Below are positions 29,102 through 56,183 of a DNA stretch of 64,000 bases, in pieces. The stretch lies in assembly GCA_008933995.1 (NCBI GenBank), contig WARS01000043.1:3214001-3278000 (forward strand), given 5' to 3'. A program made the position numbers and the translations under genes. The notes under the pieces are model-generated. The model worked only from the letters and a program-made list of their open reading frames with translations. It searched no databases and was not told where the DNA came from. The stretch is from Datnioides undecimradiatus. Taxonomy: Eukaryota; Chordata; Actinopteri; Lobotiformes; Datnioididae. The stretch's first letter is position 1. Every line of letters begins with the position of its first letter.

Positions 29102-32100
29102 ATGTTTCCAGGTCGTGGATTGTTTCGAGGCTCTTTTGCATACATCCACACGAGGAATTTGCCTGTGACGTCAGGACCGACTCGCTCACATGAGCCTCGG
29201 TCTGCCTTCAACCGACAAGCGAAAGGTGCCTTCAAACCTCCTGAGATTCAGAATGTAAATTGCTTGAAGCCTAGATTTCTATCAGAGAGATCTGTCTAAA
29301 TAATGCATTTAATAACTAATCACTGTTGTATACTCTTTTTCTTTGCTTCACTAACCAAGGTCCTGCTGTCAGGCCTAAAGTGTCACCTGAAACGCTGATT
29401 GATAGATACAGGCAAGGTGAGATGAACGCGGTGGCTTTACTCCATCAGCTTGCTGCGGTTTTACAGTTCCAGCTGGAAATAAAGGAGACTATGGCCACAG
29501 GTAAAGCTCATCAGCATTTCTGTCTTCAAATTCACTTCAGAGACCGCTGCTCTCATCATTGGTCCATGGAAGCCTGTTGATTTGTTCTACTTGACCATTA
29601 ATGAGAATTATATACATGCTACCTGTGTTCTAGTCTTAATCTTAGGCTTTTGATTCCTCATGACTTCTGTCTTAATTGAAATGAGTGATTGTTACAGTAA
29701 TTCTTACTTATTTGTTTTAGGATTCCCAAGTGAAAAGCTAGAAATACGTATTTGGCATTTTAGCCTAAAAATAAATATAATTGTCAGAATAACTGCTGAT
29801 TCAATCAACTAATCTAAACCCTAACTTGCAGTACTGACTCACAACCAGAACGACTGATAACTATTCCAAGAACAGACTGAGATGATTTTGAACATGTTAC
29901 TAGATTTTCAAAGCCATGGTTTATTATTTTTGTATCCAGTGTCAGTAAAGTACCTCTGAGGTTGCTCAGAGATATTATCAGTGGCCACAGTCACCATCTA
30001 CATAATTTGAAATCTGTGTTTTCATTTAAAGCAAATACTATATCTGTTATTTTCGTGATGGTTTCTCATGCTGGTTGAAGGCTCTAACTTGTGACATCAG
30101 CCTTTCCAAAGGTTAGATAGAGAAAAAAACATGCAGACTCTGAGCTCCAGGATTCCCAACACTGCTCACTCAGAGCGTGGTGGGAAAAAAGGGGTTAGAT
30201 CCACTGCCAGAATTGCAGATTTGTCTCCAGTGAGTTGCTCCACTCTTGATTTCTCAGGCAACATTTCAGGGCTTTATTTTGCCTTCTGTGTGGTGATTGA
30301 TGGTTTCGAGTACAAGACTGGTATGGGAATAACCAAGAAGGAGGCTCGGCTCAAAGCAGCAGAGTATGCTGTGCAGGACCTGGTACCCACCTTGGAAAGT
30401 GTGAGGTCTGACCATGAAGTATCAGGTAAAGGTCTAATGTTGATGAAAGCAACACATGCTTTTGCAGCAGATTTTCTTGATTCATATAGTGCTATTAAAG
30501 GTTATCCTCATGTCCCAGCCCATAATATAGCCCATCTATAAGAACTTTAGAAATGTGCTCTTATTTCATTCATTTCCATCCTTGTTTTGATCCATAGGCG
30601 TCCCTCCGCCCCTGCCAGTAAAAGAGCAGCCCTCCCTGTTTGATATTCATCGTTGCAGAACCATTCATGGTAATTATGTACTGTTATGTGACTCTCTGAC
30701 AAGTGTTGGAGTTGTAGCCTGTTTGGTCAGTCTGATCTTTGCACATGAAACACATGTTCAGTTGGTTTTAGGTCAGGTGACTTGTGTTTGGCCTCTTTGG
30801 CTACATGTCTTGAGCTCCTCCACACAGGAGGAGTCAACAACGACAATGCTCAAAGTTGATTATAAATGCAACAAACCAAACACCTGTTGAGCAAGCAGAA
30901 CACAAACTGAGTTTTTTTTCTTTACCTTTCATGCCATTCAGATAGAAAGAATACAGTAAACCTCCAGATTCCACATGCTGTCAGGGATCAGCTCGCTAAA
31001 CTGATGAACAACCACCCAGAGTTTTCTGCCTGTGCTGGCTCCACAGCAGCCTTCATCATTCAGACTTGTAAGTGAACTCCCAAAAGAAAAAACTTCATGC
31101 GGCATATTCTGGTTCTAATGTTGTTTAGTGAATGTTTTTGTAATGACAGTCTTACCTTCACACTATTAAATAGGAGATGATAAAGATTTATGGTACATAA
31201 ACACTTTGACAACCTCCTGGCAGCATAAATTAATTGAAGTTTTGTAGTAACTTCTTGGTACTTAATTGTATTTTAATCATCTAGTTCCAGTTAAAACACC
31301 ATTTGTGCTGATTTATGCTTGTGTTTAGACTAAATACTATATGTAATATAGAATATATAATAGTACAGTGTAAACAGAAAGGAATACAACTAGCTAGCAA
31401 CAACTAGTTAAGCAGGATCTATTCATCTCCCTCTAGCCAATGAATTTGAGGTTGTTGCTTTTGGCACCGGAGACTTCAACACGAAAGAGAGCGCCTCGTC
31501 CAGTGGCCGGATTGTGCATGATTCACATGCCGTGGTTACTGCAAGGAGATCGCTTATGAGGTTAGTTGTGAATCTGACCCTGTGTGATTATCCCATTATG
31601 CACCTTCAAATACTTAGGGGTTTGTAAAATCTTGCCTCAAATGACACACATGTTGTGTACCTATTGCCTGCGTAGTAAGTGTGTGCAGACAGATAGGTAG
31701 ACCACAGAAGCCTACAAATGTCTCTGAGAATGACTGTCAGTGTGGTTGCATTTCCTGTTGTTTTGTCAAACAGAGATCACACACATGTTCCAATTTTTTT
31801 GGTAAAAAATGAAAAAAGGTAAAACATGAATACTCAAATAGGCTACAATGTTTGATCATACCTTGTGGGAGAAAATATGCAGTAAATTAACTAACAACAT
31901 ACTGTGGGCGGTGTGTATATCTTCCAGCTAACTCGCTCTGTTGTTAGACAACAGCTACATGATATGTCTGCTGTTCATACATGCAACATGGCCTGGTAAC
32001 AAGCCTGCAGGAGACCTTGGACCTCAAACTTCAGCAGAGAGCAAACAACAAAATGTTGTTTAAATCCGGGCTTCATGTTGTTGATCATCGAGACCAAACA

Positions 32101-35100
32101 GCATTCCTGGCAGTGAAAAGCCCACAGTATCAAAAAGTGGGTGTGGGTGGAGTTAAAAGAAGTGCTGGAGAAACCAACCAGCATGCCTGCTGGTGATCGC
32201 ACAAAGTTACTTAGTATGCTGACTCTCAGAAGCAGCTAGCAACTCCTGCATGCTTATTACCACATATGTTTATAGAGAGTACTTAAAATTGAAGGTTTAA
32301 ATTTAATGGTTTTATTACAGTTTAATTAGGAACAGTTCTATTTTACAAATATTTTATATTAATTTTGTTATTTTTAAAAGGGTTCACCATCAAATGACAT
32401 TAGCCTATAATGTATTTTATTAGGAGATATTATGCAGAGGGGAAAAGGGCCCTTTTTTCTAACATTGTTGGTCCTCACCTTTGATCTACTTATGCACATA
32501 TTTCAGCTGCAAAGGCGTAGTGAGCAATTCTCATCCTGTGCTGTCAGGTTTCTATACCGGCACCTGCTGATGTTCTTCAGCAAAACGGCTAATCTGTCAG
32601 AGAAGTCGATCTTCCAGCAGAACAGCAGCAGCGGTCTCCTCAGCCTGAAGAGCGGCATCACCCTCCACCTCTATGTCAACCAGTTGCCAAAGGGTGCAGC
32701 TCAGATCCCTTCCAAGCTGTGAGTGTTTGATTATCAGTTTCATCCTTCTAGAGGGTCTCAAAGTAATGTCTTTATAACAGCCTCATAAATGCCAAATCTA
32801 GGTAAAGTAGCAGGAATAATGTTTCTAGGCAAAGATTTCAAATGCTTTTCCTCATCTCTGTGTGCTTTTCTCAGGCGCCTCAACCCGCTCTCCATTTCTG
32901 CATGGCAGGTCAACAACGAGATCAGCCTACACCTGTCAGTGGAGGGCAAGGTGTTGTGCTATTACTTCCTCTCATCTAGGTGACTGAAACAGAACAGAAC
33001 CACCACTGGAGACTAACTAGACATTCATTTGTTCTCTTAAAGGTGTTTTCAGTTTTCTCGTCAGCCCTTGATCACTCTGCCTCCAAGTTGGTCAGCATGT
33101 CCGCCACTGACAAGCTCACTCAGTGGCAGGTGCTAGGATACCAGGGAGCTTTGCTTAGCCACGTCATCGAGCCCATCTATGTGCAGAGCATCCTCATAGG
33201 CAAGTCAACAAGTCAAATCTCGCTCCAAAGACTAAGATTATCAGGGTTTTCTTGCTAGAGCATGCAGACACTGTATTCAGATTTTCCAAGCATTTTTCAA
33301 AACCAGTTGATGTTGGCAATGATAAAGTTTAATGGACAATATGGGTAGGTCAGACAATCTAGCAAATGGATAGACCTCATCGGTAACAGTTTCCCAGCTC
33401 ACATAAGAATTACATTTTTTTCAAAGTCCTCTCCATTTCCTCCACACTTTATCACAAGTTGTCTCATGTTTCTCTCAAGTCTGTGTGTTCAGATGGCTGA
33501 CGTTTAGAGCTATTAGACTTTAGCTAACAAACAGCTAGCTAACAAATTCCCCAACATTAATATCGTCTGTTTCAATCTGAACATTAGAACAGGTGTGAAA
33601 ATATCCTACTCAACTTTCCAAGTCAGATTGTACAAAAGAGAGTGATGTTAGAAGTAATTTTCCATGTGACTCTGTCCTCCCTTTCTTATATAGATATGAC
33701 CTACATTTGCCTGATCTATAAGTGAGGGAAACTCCATTATTATTATTCGTAATGAATAGATGTGATACTGTAGCAAAGTAGACACTGTTTGCGCAAACAT
33801 TTAAAGTGAGATTACTGATTGATGAAAATCAATGTCACCAGTTAATTTTAAAGATTACTGAAGGGCCATTAATTGTTAATGTAGGTGTGGAAACCATTTG
33901 AGTATTGAATTATTGTGTCACAGCCCCAAACAGTTTCTGGCGCACATGCAGAAACCATTCAAAAACGGTATACAACTAAAAACAGACTGCTGGGGCACAA
34001 TTCAGTTTTCAGTTCAACTTTGCTTCCATTTTTGCCGCCATTTTTGAGTTTAAATATCACATCTCATTTCCTGGCTAACTGCACATCACCTATGGCCCAC
34101 AGTGAACCTGTCTATTTTCATTTTCGCAAACAAACTGTTGACTTTCAGTATCTCGACTCCTACAGGCGACTCTGGGTGCACTGATATCCGTGGCATGGAG
34201 ATCTCTGTTAGCCAGCGTGTGGAGGGGATCACCTCCCAGCTGCCCATGTTCTACTGCATGATGAGGCCCCACATAAGTGTGGTGCCCTCTGTGGCTGCCA
34301 GCACTGTCGAAAGTAACCAACTGACCTACGGTATCAACTGGAGCGAAGGAGACAGTTCCTTGGAGGTTGTGGATGGCCTGAAGGGGAAGACCATAGAGGA
34401 GTAAGGATCACTGTATAGGAGGCTATTTAACTGGCTACTTAGCTTGGGCCTTTTAAAAGTAACCTTTTTTAAAAAGCAGTTTAGCAATAGTAGAGAAATA
34501 GCAAAGATAGCAATTTCTAAAAATTAAAAAATCAATAACCTCTTCAGAGCTGATTCACTATTGATCAGTGAATAATGAGTGAATTACAGTCATTTGAAGG
34601 TTGACAACAAGGTGGTCTAATGTGCAGTTTACCCGCCATAAAATGAAGAAGTCCCTTAGCCTTCCAGTTTCCTCATCTGTCGTCTATGTTGGGATTTATT
34701 TACTTTTCAGCTGTTTTCTAGCTTTGCCTGGGTTATTTTAATTTCTTTACAATGATTTTCTTGTTTTAGATCTCCCTTTAAGAGTGGCTCTGCTCTGGCA
34801 AGCCGTCTGTGCAAAGCAGCAATGCTGCACCGCTTCAAGCTGGTTGCTAAAGAGGCCCAGAGACAGGATCTGCTGGCCACAAGCTCCTACAGAGAAGCCA
34901 AGGTAATGCTGAAAAGTAACAATTTCATTGTAGAATTGGCAAGATGAAGATACTTTTAAAGCTACAGTGTGAGACATTTACAAATGAATGAACATCTGTT
35001 AAATTCCAGGTTTTGCCAAATAGATTTACAAAATGCTGATTAGGCCTATCACATAAATCGCTCCGTGTTCAGCAATGTGTAATGGTGTTTGGTGTGATGG

Positions 35101-38702: not shown

Positions 38703-38728
38703 TAAATAAACAATAAATATATAAATAG
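38703..38728 (-). promoter_or_regulatory. il2: AU-rich instability element in the il2 3' UTR
   Basis: Three ATTTA pentamers on the minus strand within 26 bases, with another at 38645-38649. Such clusters mark short-lived cytokine mRNAs. Position between stop codon and poly-A signal supports the role. Confidence 0.5.
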
Positions 38729-39208: not shown

Positions 39209-40163
39209 TTAACTCCGCACAAGGGTTTCAGTGTTTATTCGCTGCAGTAAAGATTCCATCTCGTTGAGAAACTCACTGAAATTTTTTTCCGGCCACATCT
39301 CACAGGTACATTCACTGGAGTGTGCCTAGGGAGAAGATGACAAGCCCCTTAAGTATAACAATTCATGTTATAGTCACATTTTGATTTAGTCATTAGCGCT
39401 TGATTTGGCTACGGAGTTTGCAGAAACACTTACACTGTTGGTCTCGGGGTTCCATTCTCCCAGGACTTCGACAGCCTGGTTTATGTAGAATTCTTTGTGT
39501 GTACATTCCAATTTGACCGTTCCGTTCAGCTCTGTCTTAAAGCAGTCCAGTGCTTTGGCGATGCATTTTTCCTGTGTGTGAGAAAAGAATGATGTTTTAA
39601 GTTCCCTTCACTGCTCTGACTGAGGCAGACTTATGACTGCGCACAGAGAAGTCAGCAAACAGAAGTTGTCACAGCTGTGTGAAGTATCAACACCTGGCAA
39701 GCTCATTTCCTGTACTAGAGAACCTTCACATGTGGTTTATAAAAAATCAACTAAACTCTGAAGCTTCAGCTCCTTTGATGCTTGGGGAGTACCCAACAAG
39801 TTGTACTGTTTGTGTATATATATACCATGTTTCATTGTTACTGTTGACTTTCTGTAGTTTCAGGGTATGCATTATCATAATTCAAAAGTATAAAAATACA
39901 CACTTACCTCCACATTTGATGGCGTGTAGAATGTTGAATCGTTAGGCTGTATGGACAAAAGATGACATTGGACTGTATTAGCAACAGGTAGAAAGTTAGC
40001 ACACTGAGCAAGGAAAAATATTTGGTTTGAAATTACTTACACATTTTACCCAGGTCCGCATGATGTCAATGTTTGCGTCGTTTATGGGTATAGGTTTTGC
40101 TGGCAGACAGTCAACCAGAGTAACAATCCAAAAGACAATCCCGATAAAGTCCTCCATCCTCAT
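39209..40163 (-). CDS. il2: Interleukin-2
   Basis: Secreted four-helix T-cell growth factor. Four coding exons, all phase 0: 40163-40041, 39946-39908, 39571-39434, 39325-39209, giving 138 aa. Residues 1 to about 20 are a hydrophobic signal peptide (IGIVFWIVTL core), with cleavage likely near CLPA. Exon 2 is only 13 codons (PNDSTFYTPSNVE). Exon 3 carries CIAKALDCFKTEL and exon 4 SECTCEMWPEKNF, then the final helix SEFLNEMESLLQR, corresponding to the mammalian IL-2 EFLNRWI helix. Mature cysteines are at 41, 57, 64, 77, 106 and 108. NX(S/T) sequons are at 43, 70 and 115. All splice sites are GT-AG, most with GTAAGT donors. The exon 4 acceptor follows CTCCCTAG; the nearby CTCCAG would give an immediate stop. 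Position next to adad1 in opposite orientation matches the human locus. The alternative start at the second Met would drop two residues. Confidence 0.93.
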
Positions 40164-40252: not shown

Positions 40253-40311
40253 GCTGTGGGGTGGAAAGGGTGGGCTGAATTGGTTGCATATCACCTAATG
40301 CATACAGCGTT

Positions 40312-40331
40312 GTTTTTCCTTTAGATGACTC
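40312..40331 (-). promoter_or_regulatory. il2: Composite AP-1/NFAT-like site of the il2 promoter
   Basis: On the minus strand GAGTCA (AP-1-like, 40331-40326) lies a few bases upstream of GGAAAAAC (NFAT core, 40319-40312), about 60-80 bp upstream of the TATA box. Adjacent AP-1 and NFAT sites are the established logic of the mammalian IL2 promoter. A degenerate octamer (ATATGCAA) lies between this and the TATA box. Confidence 0.45.
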
Positions 40332-40359
40332 TTGGAATTTTTTTTTTCATCATGTTACT

Positions 40360-42111: not shown

Positions 42112-42275
42112 TATAGTGAACCCCAAATTGCTCCTTATGGCAGTTCCATGGGTGTATGCTCCCTATGGCAGTTCCATGGGTGTATGAATGCATTAGTTAG
42201 TAGTAGTGTAAAGTGCTTTGAGTTGTCAGAAGACAACAAAGGCACTATAAAAGTACAATCCATTTAATATGTTGT
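42112..42275 (+). repeat. Dispersed teleost repeat fragment with an internal 28-bp tandem duplication
   Basis: The text 'ccccaaattgctcc...ggtgtatgaatg' followed by 'aaagtgctttgagttgtcag' and 'gcactataaaagtacaatcc' matches the 3' part of a very common fish interspersed repeat (RTE-LINE or SINE-tail type; class uncertain). Within it, 42130-42157 is repeated at 42158-42185 with one mismatch. Confidence 0.6.
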
Positions 42276-43260: not shown

Positions 43261-43284
43261 TTACTGCTTGACTAAATGTCAACG

Positions 43285-43290
43285 TTTATT
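43285..43290 (-). terminator. Candidate il2-like polyadenylation signal
   Basis: AATAAA on the minus strand about 215 bases past the stop codon, after the AU-rich cluster. Confidence 0.5.
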
Positions 43291-43369
43291 GTTATGATTC
43301 ATTTGAACAAACAACCAGTGCTTTTTTCATACATATAATATATCCATTTTTGGTACATCAGGTACATAA

Positions 43370-43386
43370 TAAATAAATATATAAAT
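43370..43386 (-). promoter_or_regulatory. AU-rich instability element in the il2-like 3' UTR
   Basis: Overlapping ATTTA pentamers on the minus strand include the nonamer TTATTTATT, a classical class II AU-rich element found in cytokine mRNAs. It lies between the stop codon and the poly-A signal. Confidence 0.55.
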
Positions 43387-43502
43387 AATTGAGAACTTCT
43401 TCCAGTGTTCAGGAAACATTACAAAAATCACATTTTAGTGCAGTGTGTAATATTAAATAACAATAAATTAGAGGAAGCACATGTAGAGTCAGGATTGATC
43501 TA

Positions 43503-44365
43503 TTACTTCTTAGACTGACTGTCGTTGAACTGCTCAACAAAGGTCTTGGTTGCGTTCAGGAAGCTTCCAAAATTCTCATGGACTATCATAGTCAAGTTGC
43601 ATGTTGTGTTTGTCTGTGGAGAGAAAGCTGGTTTAGTATTGGATCATGTATTTTTAGCAAGGAACTTGGATCTAGAAAAATTAGTAAGGCATTACAACAC
43701 GGCCAAAACTCACCTGTGGCAGACAGTCCAAATCCAGCGCCTGCAGAGTCTGGTCAATGTGAAATGATTTGTTACATTTCGCTTTGGCCAGTTGCAGCCC
43801 TTCTGTGAAGATCTTTAGGCTTGTAGTATGGCACTCAGTGTTCTGTCAATGACACAGAAATCCTTTGGGTCATACTTCCAGTAATGAAAAACAACAAAAC
43901 TGTGAGTGTTGTCAGTGAATAGTTGAATTGAATCTGATTATTGTTCCCATTAGTTTTAAAAAATGATTGTAGATGTTGTGCATGAGAGCTTAAACCTGCT
44001 CTGAGGTGATCTCTTACCTGCTGCATTGCTGGAGAAGTGAAGGTCACGTTCTTTTCCTACAACAAATTAGAGAAAAAGACAAAGTGTCACTATTCACTGT
44101 CAATTGGTTTATCCCTTTTATTGGATCACCTGATCCTGGTCAGTTTTCCAAATTTAATTCTTAAAAAAATGCAGGTTTCAATGGACTAAAATGTTTGTCA
44201 GACCATTGCATTTTAAGCATGAAAAAAACTTACACATGAGACATCAAGCAAAATGTCAAAGCCCAGGTCATTCAGGTCCATGAAGCAGGATGAGTCAACA
44301 GGGTATGCTTGAAGATATCCTACGAGAAGAAACATCCAGAGGGCTATTCTGAAAGAGTGCTCCAT
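43503..44365 (-). CDS. Interleukin-2-like cytokine (tandem il2 paralogue)
   Basis: Second short-chain four-helix cytokine, 4.2 kb upstream of il2 in the same orientation. Four phase-0 coding exons: 44365-44234, 44056-44018, 43842-43714, 43613-43503, giving 136 aa. Signal peptide about residues 1-20 (FRIALWMFLLVGYLQA). Exon 2 is 13 codons (EKNVTFTSPAMQQ), the same length as in il2, and aligns in position with its TFYTPSNVE. Exon 3 has paired cysteines (ECHTT, AKCNKS) and exon 4 a final helix (FGSFLNATKTFVEQF) like the EFL helix of IL-2. Cysteines are at 27, 44, 61, 80, 97 and 105. There are six N-glycosylation sequons (47, 81, 102, 106, 120, 130), four of them in the last exon. All donors and acceptors are canonical. 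Sequence identity to il2 is low. An IL-15-like identity cannot be excluded, but exon plan and location favour a tandem il2 duplicate. Fish il2-like genes have been described, to my knowledge; which one this equals is not tested. Confidence 0.85.
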
Positions 44366-44460: not shown

Positions 44461-44468
44461 AATTTATA
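44461..44468 (-). promoter_or_regulatory. il2-like TATA box
   Basis: TATAAATT on the minus strand about 97 bases upstream of the ATG, in the same position as the il2 TATA box. Confidence 0.65.
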
Positions 44469-44515: not shown

Positions 44516-44535
44516 GGGAAATTCTTATTTTTTCC
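44516..44535 (-). promoter_or_regulatory. kappa-B-like and NFAT-like sites of the il2-like promoter
   Basis: GGGAAATTCT (kappa-B-like, plus strand 44516-44525) is followed by AGGAAAAAATA (NFAT core, minus strand 44535-44525), about 50-70 bp upstream of the TATA box. A second NFAT-like GGGAAAAAAGG lies about 20 bp farther. Motif match only. Confidence 0.4.
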
Positions 44536-53449: not shown

Positions 53450-56183
53450 TCAGTACAGTCTGGTTATGGCCTGAAGAATGAAAGATTGATATTTTCACAT
53501 CAGTTTCCTATATTCACATTTTCTTTATGTTACAGCAAAACAAAACAAACTAAATAAATAAAGATAATAAGAAGATGTCCTCACCCTTTGAATAAGAGAC
53601 TCTAATCTGTTGAAAAACTCTGTTGTGTTTGCCTTAGGATGTGAGTCACAGTCCTGGCAGGTGGACTAAAGGGAAACGTGCAAAACACAAGAGAAGTTAA
53701 CTTACTAATAACCATCTTCTGCAACAAGTGCCACACTTTTAGAAACAAAATTACATGACCCAATAAATGACACATTGATAACAATAAAATTTTCCTTACG
53801 TTTGCATCTCCCGCATTGCAAAAGTTCAGACCTCTCTCCTGAAAAGGATAAAATAGATCTGTTAGTTTAAGAAACATACAACAACGTCTTAATGCAGGTA
53901 TATACACTTCAATAATAAATAAATAAATCAATAATTGCATGTACTTACAGTAATGGTACTCTTCAGACTCCTGTAGAGTTTGTTTTGATTTTTCTCTGTA
54001 ACGTTGAATTGCACCTGCAGATTAGCACGAAAGCATTGCAGCGCTGACAGACAGCAGCAGTCCTGTTGGATGATGAAAAAAGAAAACGGTTATGATTCTT
54101 TGTCCTAAAAACATTGTACTTAATAAGTATGGATTATCCCACAAGCCCAAAGCCATCATGAAAAGGTAATGTACAGCTTAAAAATGGATGAGGTACATAA
54201 TGCAGATTAGCCATCAAAAACTGTGGAACAGCTTAAAAGTTGTACTTTATTAACCATAAATCTGGTTCACCAGTAGTTTCAGTCTCTAGATTTCTTTTTT
54301 TCTAACCATGCAGTTCAACATTTATCAATCTCAGGGGAAAAAAATAATCCTCCCATCGTGGCCATCAAACCATTTCCAAGAAAGCTGTTGACTTTCCAGC
54401 CGATACATGCACAAACACTTTTACTTAAACTGAAACTCAACTAAATAAAGTTTCCACTATTTTAAAGTTTCTTTTCCCAAGAGCGCTTCAGATGTTTTTG
54501 TCTGAATAATTTCCCTCCAGCAATCTTAAATGATGATAGTGGCCTGTTTTTTCCAAGTGAGAGAGTTTGTTTCTGTTTAGATACTCAGTGTGTGATGCTC
54601 ATGAACCCGACGAGCTCAGGTCAGATCTGAGATTGAGATCTCAGCATGGCTGCTCGCAGATTAAGTAGGTTAGATTATTGCTTCAGGGTGAGAATCAAAC
54701 AATTAGAACCAATAAAAGCAGCTCACTTAATTCTTTTACTGTTTTTTCTCTATGATGCTGCTTTTGCATTAGTAAGTCACAGACCCTGCTTCAGTCTTTG
54801 CTCCGTCGTGGAGGTATTTTTAATCTGAATTTTAAGATTTTTTTATGCAAAATCGTGGCTTCACACCCACTCAGAAATCCTCATCACTTGTGGTTCAAGA
54901 TAAACTGTAATTTCCCGGGGTTTTAGACAAAAGATTGACTCAAATGTTTTTTCGAGCACGCCGGGGAGCATTGTGAGTTTGTGAGGTGGCGTGAGGAAGT
55001 GTCATGGTTTTGTCTACGTTCTCGCTTGATTACTCATCACATTTCGTTTGAGAGTGCAACGGAAGCTGTGAGAAAATACACTGAGCAAGCTCTTGACTTG
55101 ACTCACACGAGTGCATGAGTCTGACAAGAAAGAGTGCTGATGTGAATTTAAAAGTAATGCAGTTGATGTGAATAAGCGTTCATTTGAAGTAAAACAAAGC
55201 GATGGTTAAAAACAAAGAGCACATATTCTGGCTGTTATGTGGGACATTCACACATTAACATTGAAAAACATACTTATATATATTTTAAACAGTCTAATTA
55301 CACTAAAATGCGCATCTTGGAAGATAAATGTCATCATTTTAATAAAATGGTGATTTCATAGTTATAGTTAGTTCAAATTAAATTTTTTATTTTTTGGCTA
55401 ATTTGTGCAAAGGCATGAGGATATATGATCTCTGTGCTAGAGTTAAACTCAAGAAACATTGCATTTGTAGTTATTTATAATATCCAGTAGCTAACAATTT
55501 GGTAGATTAATTTTATTTTACTTATCTATGATTACTGTTTTTATATTAAGCATTGTTAGCTTACAGTACACTGAAACTAATTTACATATACATACATTTA
55601 AACATGTAATTTTTTTTAGATTAGCTAGCAGAAGATGGTAAAAACAAAGTGAACGCAAAAGTATAAATAAATATATTAAATAATGTAAGTTTGTATGTTT
55701 GTTAGCCCTTAGTTTTTTTTAGGTTTTACAGCTAATTGATTCTATAGCCTTTACCCAGCACACTGATTTCACACATCATTTGATGTACTCCTACAGTAGC
55801 CGGCACATGACAATTAGTAACTACACTAAGTGGGAGAATAACAACAATGAGTAAGCAACCACAAATATTAGATGCAGCAGTGACCATACTGTCAGCATTA
55901 TTACAAGTTAGTTTGGCTTACCTCGATATTCACTGGTGGAGTGTGGAGCATTTTCTCATTGTGCTGCAAGACACAAGCAACATCGTGTTTAGATAGCTAC
56001 GACCAAACATGGGCAAAGCTCTGAAAAAGTACATTTAGAGGAACGTACCAACAGATTCTCTTTCACAGTTTTCAGCTGTCTGAGGACTTCTTGCAATTTC
56101 CTCTCCACTGTCCTGTTCGTCGTTGCCTTGACCAGAGAAGAGCAGCAGCAGACTGCGAGAAGGCAAAAAACAACCAGCCTCAT
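53450..56183 (-). CDS. il21: Interleukin-21
   Basis: Secreted four-helix cytokine of T cells acting through the common gamma chain receptor. Six phase-0 coding exons: 56183-56049, 55963-55922, 54062-53949, 53838-53800, 53665-53585, 53470-53450, giving 143 aa. Signal peptide residues 1-20 (LVVFCLLAVCCCSSLVKA). The first helix (LQEVLRQLKTVKENLL) parallels the mammalian LIDIVDQLKNYVNDL. Exon 2 (LHTPPVNIE) parallels LPAPEDVE, exon 3 has SALQCFRANLQ like SAFSCFQKAQLK, and exon 5 has TCQDCDSHP then TEFFNRLESLIQR like TCPSCDSYE and EFLERFKSLLQK. Cysteines at 61-63, 69, 104, 113 and 116 include the conserved pairs. Sequons are at 23, 79, 110 and 123. A frame extension upstream of the ATG starts with GTG and is not used. 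The helix D region is spread over three small exons (39, 81 and 21 nt). All splice sites are canonical. Confidence 0.93.

Follow-up and report, generated by a model that had tools for sequence, protein, structure and literature searches.

An additional gene beside il2 in the adad1–il2–il21 locus of the fish Datnioides undecimradiatus, very probably an IL-2-like paralogue

A second gene related to interleukin-2, IL2L, has been described in fugu, tetraodon and stickleback, where it lies beside IL2, consists of four exons and forms a clade of its own (PMC6070626; this article and those cited below by PMC number are used from excerpts of their text). Its exon 3 is smaller than that of IL2—123 nt are printed in the same comparison that gives 144–156 nt for percomorph IL2—and its identity to IL2 amounts to 22–25%; four cysteines, designated C1, C2, C4 and C5, are attributed to it, and IL2 and IL2L are adjacent to each other in a conserved locus (PMC6070626). 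The IL-2-like proteins have been called neoteleost-specific, and the hallmarks listed for IL-2, IL-15, IL-15L and IL-21 are two cysteine pairs, the LXTP motif, F44, D/E89 and a glutamine in helix D (PMC3894449). The DNA analysed here, referred to as the window, is a stretch of 64,000 nt from D. undecimradiatus (contig WARS01000043.1, positions 3,214,001–3,278,000), and all coordinates given below are those of the window. It contains an additional gene of the il2 family, designated il2l, which is real and, as far as the excerpted literature goes, of a type already published as standing beside il2 in several percomorphs; il2l is, with high probability, an IL-2-like paralogue that arose by a local duplication of il2 in the spiny-rayed (percomorph/neoteleost) fishes. 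In the sea bass, both IL-2 and IL-2L have reportedly been studied functionally, by Buonocore in 2020.

The gene order in the window is adad1–il2–il2l–il21. The adad1-like gene, comprising one dsrm and three A_deamin frames, is located on the forward strand at 30095–34944, its outer limits being approximate, and is followed on the reverse strand by the gene at 39209–40163, with exons at 40041–40163, 39908–39946, 39434–39571 and 39209–39325 (123, 39, 138 and 117 nt, the stop codon counted) and a product of 138 amino acids. This product exceeds the cut-off of the Pfam family IL15 (32.5 versus 28.5 bits) and matches the PDB chain 7cjn (“Interleukin”), which we take to be grass carp IL-2, with an E-value of 7.1e-11, better than the chains of IL-15 and IL-21; judged from its sequence, the gene is il2. 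The il21 gene, also on the reverse strand at about 53450–56183, has six exons assigned by eye and 143 amino acids; its kinship is taken from PDB and Pfam, the top PDB match being IL-21 (E 3.9e-06) and the score of 31.4 bits lying above the Pfam IL15 cut-off. The placement of the extra gene between il2 and il21, proposed in a sequence-only reading of this DNA, is thus confirmed, with il21 on one side and il2, with adad1 beyond it, on the other; that is, il2l is adjacent to il2 within the adad1–il2–il21 locus, as is typical of percomorph IL-2L. In the stretch separating il2 from il2l, at 42129–42184, two 28-nt units stand in tandem and agree with each other to 96%.

The gene under study, il2l, is an intact four-exon gene on the reverse strand at 43503–44365, the sequence of which reads into a product of 136 amino acids. 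Exon 1 (44234–44365, 132 nt) covers the leader, helix A and the first conserved cysteine, C44; exon 2 (44018–44056, 39 nt) the AB loop with an altered LXTP motif, FTSP; exon 3 (43714–43842, 129 nt) the putative helices B and C; and exon 4 (43503–43613, 111 nt including the stop TAA) the CD loop and helix D, with E127 at the position of the glutamine facing the common gamma chain (γc). All three introns are of the GT..AG type and in phase 0. The exon plan had been claimed to be that of il2, and four phase-0 coding exons with an exon 2 of 39 nt are indeed present in both genes, four coding exons with phase-0 introns being also a feature of percomorph IL-2L. Residues 7–16 form the most hydrophobic 10-residue stretch of the protein and resemble a signal peptide, the computed pI is 4.76, and the product is most likely a short-chain cytokine with a four-helix fold, secreted in a form of about 116 residues.

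With regard to the published IL-2-like family, exon 3 is shorter in il2l than in il2 (129 versus 138 nt), as in percomorph IL-2L, both lengths falling just outside the ranges given in the excerpts, i.e. il2 below 144–156 nt and il2l above 123 nt. The identity between il2l and il2—41 identities over 128 aligned positions when the leader is included (32%) and 29 over 106 in the mature proteins (27%)—is low, in agreement with the earlier claim of little residue identity, and lies above the published 22–25%, which was obtained by a different alignment method. If the six cysteines of mature il2 are numbered C1–C6 in order, those of il2l at C44, C61, C80 and C105 align with C41, C57, C77 and C106 of il2, while C64 and C108 of il2 face I68 and L107 of il2l. 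The canonical six-cysteine pattern of fish IL-2 is therefore missing from il2l, C3 and C6 being replaced by I68 and L107, and the set that is kept—C1, C2, C4 and C5—is that published for IL-2L, the lost C3 and C6 being the pair that makes the single bridge of mammalian IL-2 (PMC6070626). In the multi-sequence alignment, C3 of il2 stands in the column of human C58; C6 is assigned by order only, since human C105 falls there three columns ahead of C108 of il2. An extra pair of cysteines is present in il2l, C27 where helix A begins and C97 behind helix C, and the two could form a bridge, because an up-up-down-down bundle would bring both ends to one side. The acidic pI was not used as a feature of IL-2L membership, since an acidic pI is stated for fish IL-2 in the excerpted text.

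The kinship of il2l was evaluated by scores, profiles and trees. Mature il2l aligns with mature il2 at a score of 103, compared to 28.7 ± 5.2 for shuffled sequences, none of 1000 shuffles reaching 103; the score of il2l was equalled by 1/1000 shuffles with the fish IL-2 chain 7cjn, 170/1000 with human IL-15, 208/1000 with il21 of the window and 696/1000 with human IL-21. A profile built from il2 and the fish IL-2 chain is matched as well as by il2l in 0 of 2000 shuffled copies, each of two wider family profiles is matched equally or better by one shuffle in 2000, and the IL-21 profile by 59 in 2000. In database searches with il2l alone, Pfam yielded no IL2 or IL15 match and PDB no chain up to E 10; the sole Pfam hit, GM_CSF, scored 19 bits, below its cut-off of 20.1, and was taken as chance. 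When il2l was added to the il2 query, the fish IL-2 chain scored 37.8 bits instead of 45.5.

These data bear on the possibility that il2l is a relocated IL-15-like gene or a duplicated IL-21 gene rather than a copy of il2. The identities of mature il2l are low with all three IL-2s (27% to il2, 18% to the fish IL-2 chain and 18% to human IL-2) against 16–20% with IL-15 and the IL-21s, which would leave room for such an origin. The tree, based on seven sequences—il2l, two fish IL-2s, human IL-2, human IL-15 and two IL-21s—gives a support of 52/0 to il2l with il2 and of 80/89 to il2l with the two fish IL-2s; it places human IL-2 beside IL-21 and, owing to this misplacement, carries little weight. 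None of the groupings of il2l with human IL-15 (p-AU 0.10), with both IL-21s (0.094) or with human IL-2 (0.081) is rejected, the first two again agreeing with an IL-15-like or IL-21 origin, but il2l as the sister of the il21 of the window alone is disfavoured (p-AU 0.023). The tree check suggested in the sequence-only reading is answered in part: no grouping of il2l with IL-21 or IL-15 is seen among the seven sequences, but the weak tree and the p-AU values of 0.10 and 0.094 leave the matter less clear for both, and the more so for IL-15-like. Furthermore, the scores with IL-15 and IL-21 are at the level of shuffles and that with il2 is far above it, the position and exon plan of il2l follow il2, and its cysteines are the published IL-2L set. 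An origin from IL-21 or IL-15, disfavoured by the shuffle scores, the p-AU of 0.023 and the 59/2000 shuffles with the IL-21 profile, is therefore considered very improbable, and the earlier view of il2l as a strongly diverged tandem duplicate of il2 is upheld by the gene model, the shuffle test and the identities.

Further copies were sought in the genome (581 Mb, 497 contigs). The il2l protein gave nine matches, four in il2l itself—three exons with E-values from 7.1e-23 to 1.8e-17 and the exon-2 stretch with 6.9—and five elsewhere, all with E 0.41 or worse and none of the nine in il2; the il2 protein gave four, i.e. three of its own exons and one match in il21 (E 2.1). No third copy of il2/il2l was found by tblastn in the window or by the genome searches with il2l and il2, the best candidates of which were scored; as the il2l query missed even il2, a further copy diverged to the same extent could escape the genome search. 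The Pfam IL15 model had three matches in the genome, none above the cut-off and all with translations unlike IL-15 by eye; since it missed even il2 and il21, that search is uninformative on the presence of IL-15. None of the 71 pattern matches in viral contigs was confirmed as a relative. The contigs C471 and C472 (L014, L015), 7.97 Mb each, carry near-identical sequence at nearly the same coordinate and are possibly two haplotypes of one piece of a chromosome.

As far as the hallmarks of the family are concerned, two of the three cysteine pairs inferred for il2 as well as F69 are kept in il2l, FTSP stands for LXTP (FYTP in il2), and the helix-D site has E, followed by Q. D33 of il2l aligns with the helix-A aspartate of il2, D29, the equation with the mammalian contact being made by eye. 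At the position of human IL-2 Q126, il2l has E127 with Q128 next to it—in a gapless alignment anchored on the conserved E/S-F pair—and a glutamine occupies this position in all six sequences compared (il2, the fish IL-2 chain, human IL-2, IL-15 and IL-21, and il21 of the window). The number of N-glycosylation sequons is six in il2l versus three in il2; shuffled copies of mature il2l contain 1.67 on average, and six are reached in 14 of 20000. One of them, N120-A-T, has its asparagine aligned with human N119, presumably a γc contact, and another, N130, is found later on helix D. The helix-D glutamine is important for binding IL-2R-gamma in IL-2, IL-15 and IL-21 (PMC3894449), its equation with human Q126 resting on the numbering applied in the present analysis. 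With FTSP, il2l lacks the tyrosine listed in the same article as key for IL-15R-alpha. In the excerpts of PMC6070626, PMC3894449 and PMC7658486, the discussion of IL-2L does not touch upon such changes of receptor contacts.

A shift in receptor use or function, put forward in the sequence-only reading, is plausible and consistent with these residue changes. The same changes might be those of a natural partial agonist or antagonist, which would bind the beta chain via helix A but recruit γc poorly, with IL-2/IL-15 signals being damped. Both E127, in contrast to the glutamine of all six relatives, and the sequons N120-A-T, at the human N119 position, and N130 on helix D would fit such a molecule, and human IL-2 variants at Q126 combined with L18R and Q22E in a background of high beta affinity are partial agonists (PMC8131104); those data come, however, from combined changes and not from E alone, the glutamine directly after E127, Q128, may substitute, and the sequons of il2l are predicted glycan sites. 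We regard this partial-agonist function as unlikely.

The TATA box (TATAAA) claimed upstream of il2l is present at 44463–44468 on the reverse strand, its distance from the ATG being, nevertheless, 103 nt and not about 97 nt. Further upstream, at 44516–44535 on the same strand, there are a GGAAA site and AAGAATTTCC; the latter agrees in 9 of 10 positions with the first half of the CD28 response region of mammals, the AP-1 half being absent. More GGAAA sites are seen in the il2l promoter, and we take these sites to be NFAT-like. As a probe for the mammalian CD28 response region, TTTAAAGAAATTCCAAAGAGTCATCA (PMC3167847) was used. Across the entire window it matches best, with a score of 17, in the il2 promoter at 40310–40340 (reverse strand), where a stretch like that region, differing over 22 columns by one missing base (a gap) and one mismatch, is followed by GGAAAAACAA; the next-best place scores 14, and the best scores of 100 shuffled probes have a mean of 13.35 and a maximum of 17. 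Since shuffles reach 17, such a score could by itself arise by chance, and it is the location in the il2 promoter that makes the match telling. The probe scores 8 upstream of il2l, the same as for il21, and the 17-mer of il2 itself, with up to three mismatches allowed, occurs only at il2, where it is exact by construction. AP-1 and kappa-B patterns have no match in the promoters of il2l, il2 and il21. A promoter shared by il2l and il2 was rejected, their alignment being no better than that of shuffles (338/500 reach its score). The likeness between fish and mammals in the CD28-type stretch of the il2 promoter may merit a study of its own. It may be mentioned here that the forward ‘IL-2’ primer listed for tilapia and sea bass in PMC11641086 begins with AAGAGTCATCA, which it has in common with the mammalian IL2 promoter probe of PMC3167847. 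The remainder of that primer presumably resembles the mammalian promoter, not fish coding sequence.

On the other side of the gene, the 233 nt past the stop codon (43270–43502) contain six ATTTA motifs, overlaps counted, and one AATAAA, so that the 3' UTR is AU-rich, as had been noticed before. An AU-rich 25-mer in it (43363–43387, reverse strand) is 88% (22/25) like a segment of the il2 3' UTR at 38703–38727, and this common element may reflect ancestry or a general use of AU-rich sequence. With the gene described from promoter to 3' UTR, it can be asked whether il2l is a decaying or unexpressed duplicate of il2, i.e. a pseudogene, as its strong divergence, altered family motifs and the lack of both a Pfam IL-2/IL-15 match and a complete CD28-response element could suggest. 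Yet all four exons are open and accompanied by GT-AG splice sites, a TATA box, AATAAA and AU-rich elements, and a rough NG86 estimate for il2l and il2, made over 128 codons with both histories averaged, gives a dN of 0.62 and a dS of 1.44, meaning that synonymous sites have changed more; a pseudogene is accordingly very improbable.

The mechanism of il2l, i.e. its receptors, expression and control, is proposed with less certainty than its identity as IL-2L. The NFAT-like sites and the supposedly unstable AU-rich mRNA suggest that il2l would be made by activated lymphocytes, and without the full CD28-response composite of il2 its control would differ from that of il2. The protein, most likely a cytokine of the T-cell type, is expected to be secreted and to fold as a four-helix bundle held by C44–C80 and C61–C105, with the possible C27–C97 bridge replacing the lost bridge of mammalian type. 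It would bind IL-2R-beta via the kept helix-A aspartate and signal through beta/common-gamma to STAT5, its contacts with the gamma chain and IL-15R-alpha probably being altered, and il2 and il2l may divide or tune one IL-2 signal. That il2l might be a built-in modulator of the IL-2 receptor in the present fish lineage, similar to the engineered IL-2 partial agonists, is a speculative extension to which we assign a low probability. On this doubtful reading, the beta grip would be kept, and E127, possible glycans on helix D and a weakened IL-15R-alpha motif would alter the remaining contacts; just as tentatively, it would also include C27–C97 in place of the lost bridge and a partial exit from CD28 control. 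Leaving aside that extension, studies of fish T-cell growth factors need to distinguish il2 from il2l. If the contact changes are real and conserved, the il2/il2l pair represents a natural experiment splitting the activity of IL-2, and such splitting—in receptor balance and costimulation control—bears on IL-2 engineering.

Among the known systems, IL-21 and IL-15 share with il2l the short-chain cytokine superfamily and, in the case of il21, also the locus, their similarity to il2l being at the shuffle level; both retain the helix-D glutamine, and il21 of the window has six exons versus four in il2l. Salmonid IL-2B is, like il2l, a diverged second IL-2 that has lost cysteines and some IL-15R-alpha contacts (PMC7658486); unlike il2l, it comes from the salmonid genome duplication and resides on another chromosome, and it keeps C1, C3, C5 and C7 at a pI of 6.79–7.87, compared to 4.76 for il2l (PMC6070626). 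With the il2 of the window, il2l has in common the exon plan, N-D in helix A and F-L-N in helix D, and it departs from fish IL-2 in lacking C3 and C6, the LXTP tyrosine, the glutamine of helix D and a complete promoter element of the CD28 type. Its closest counterpart is percomorph IL-2L, from which it differs by C27 and C97, the six sequons, the 129-nt exon 3 and the identity of 27–32%, and with which it agrees in position, four exons, a short exon 3, the cysteines C1, C2, C4 and C5, and low identity to il2.
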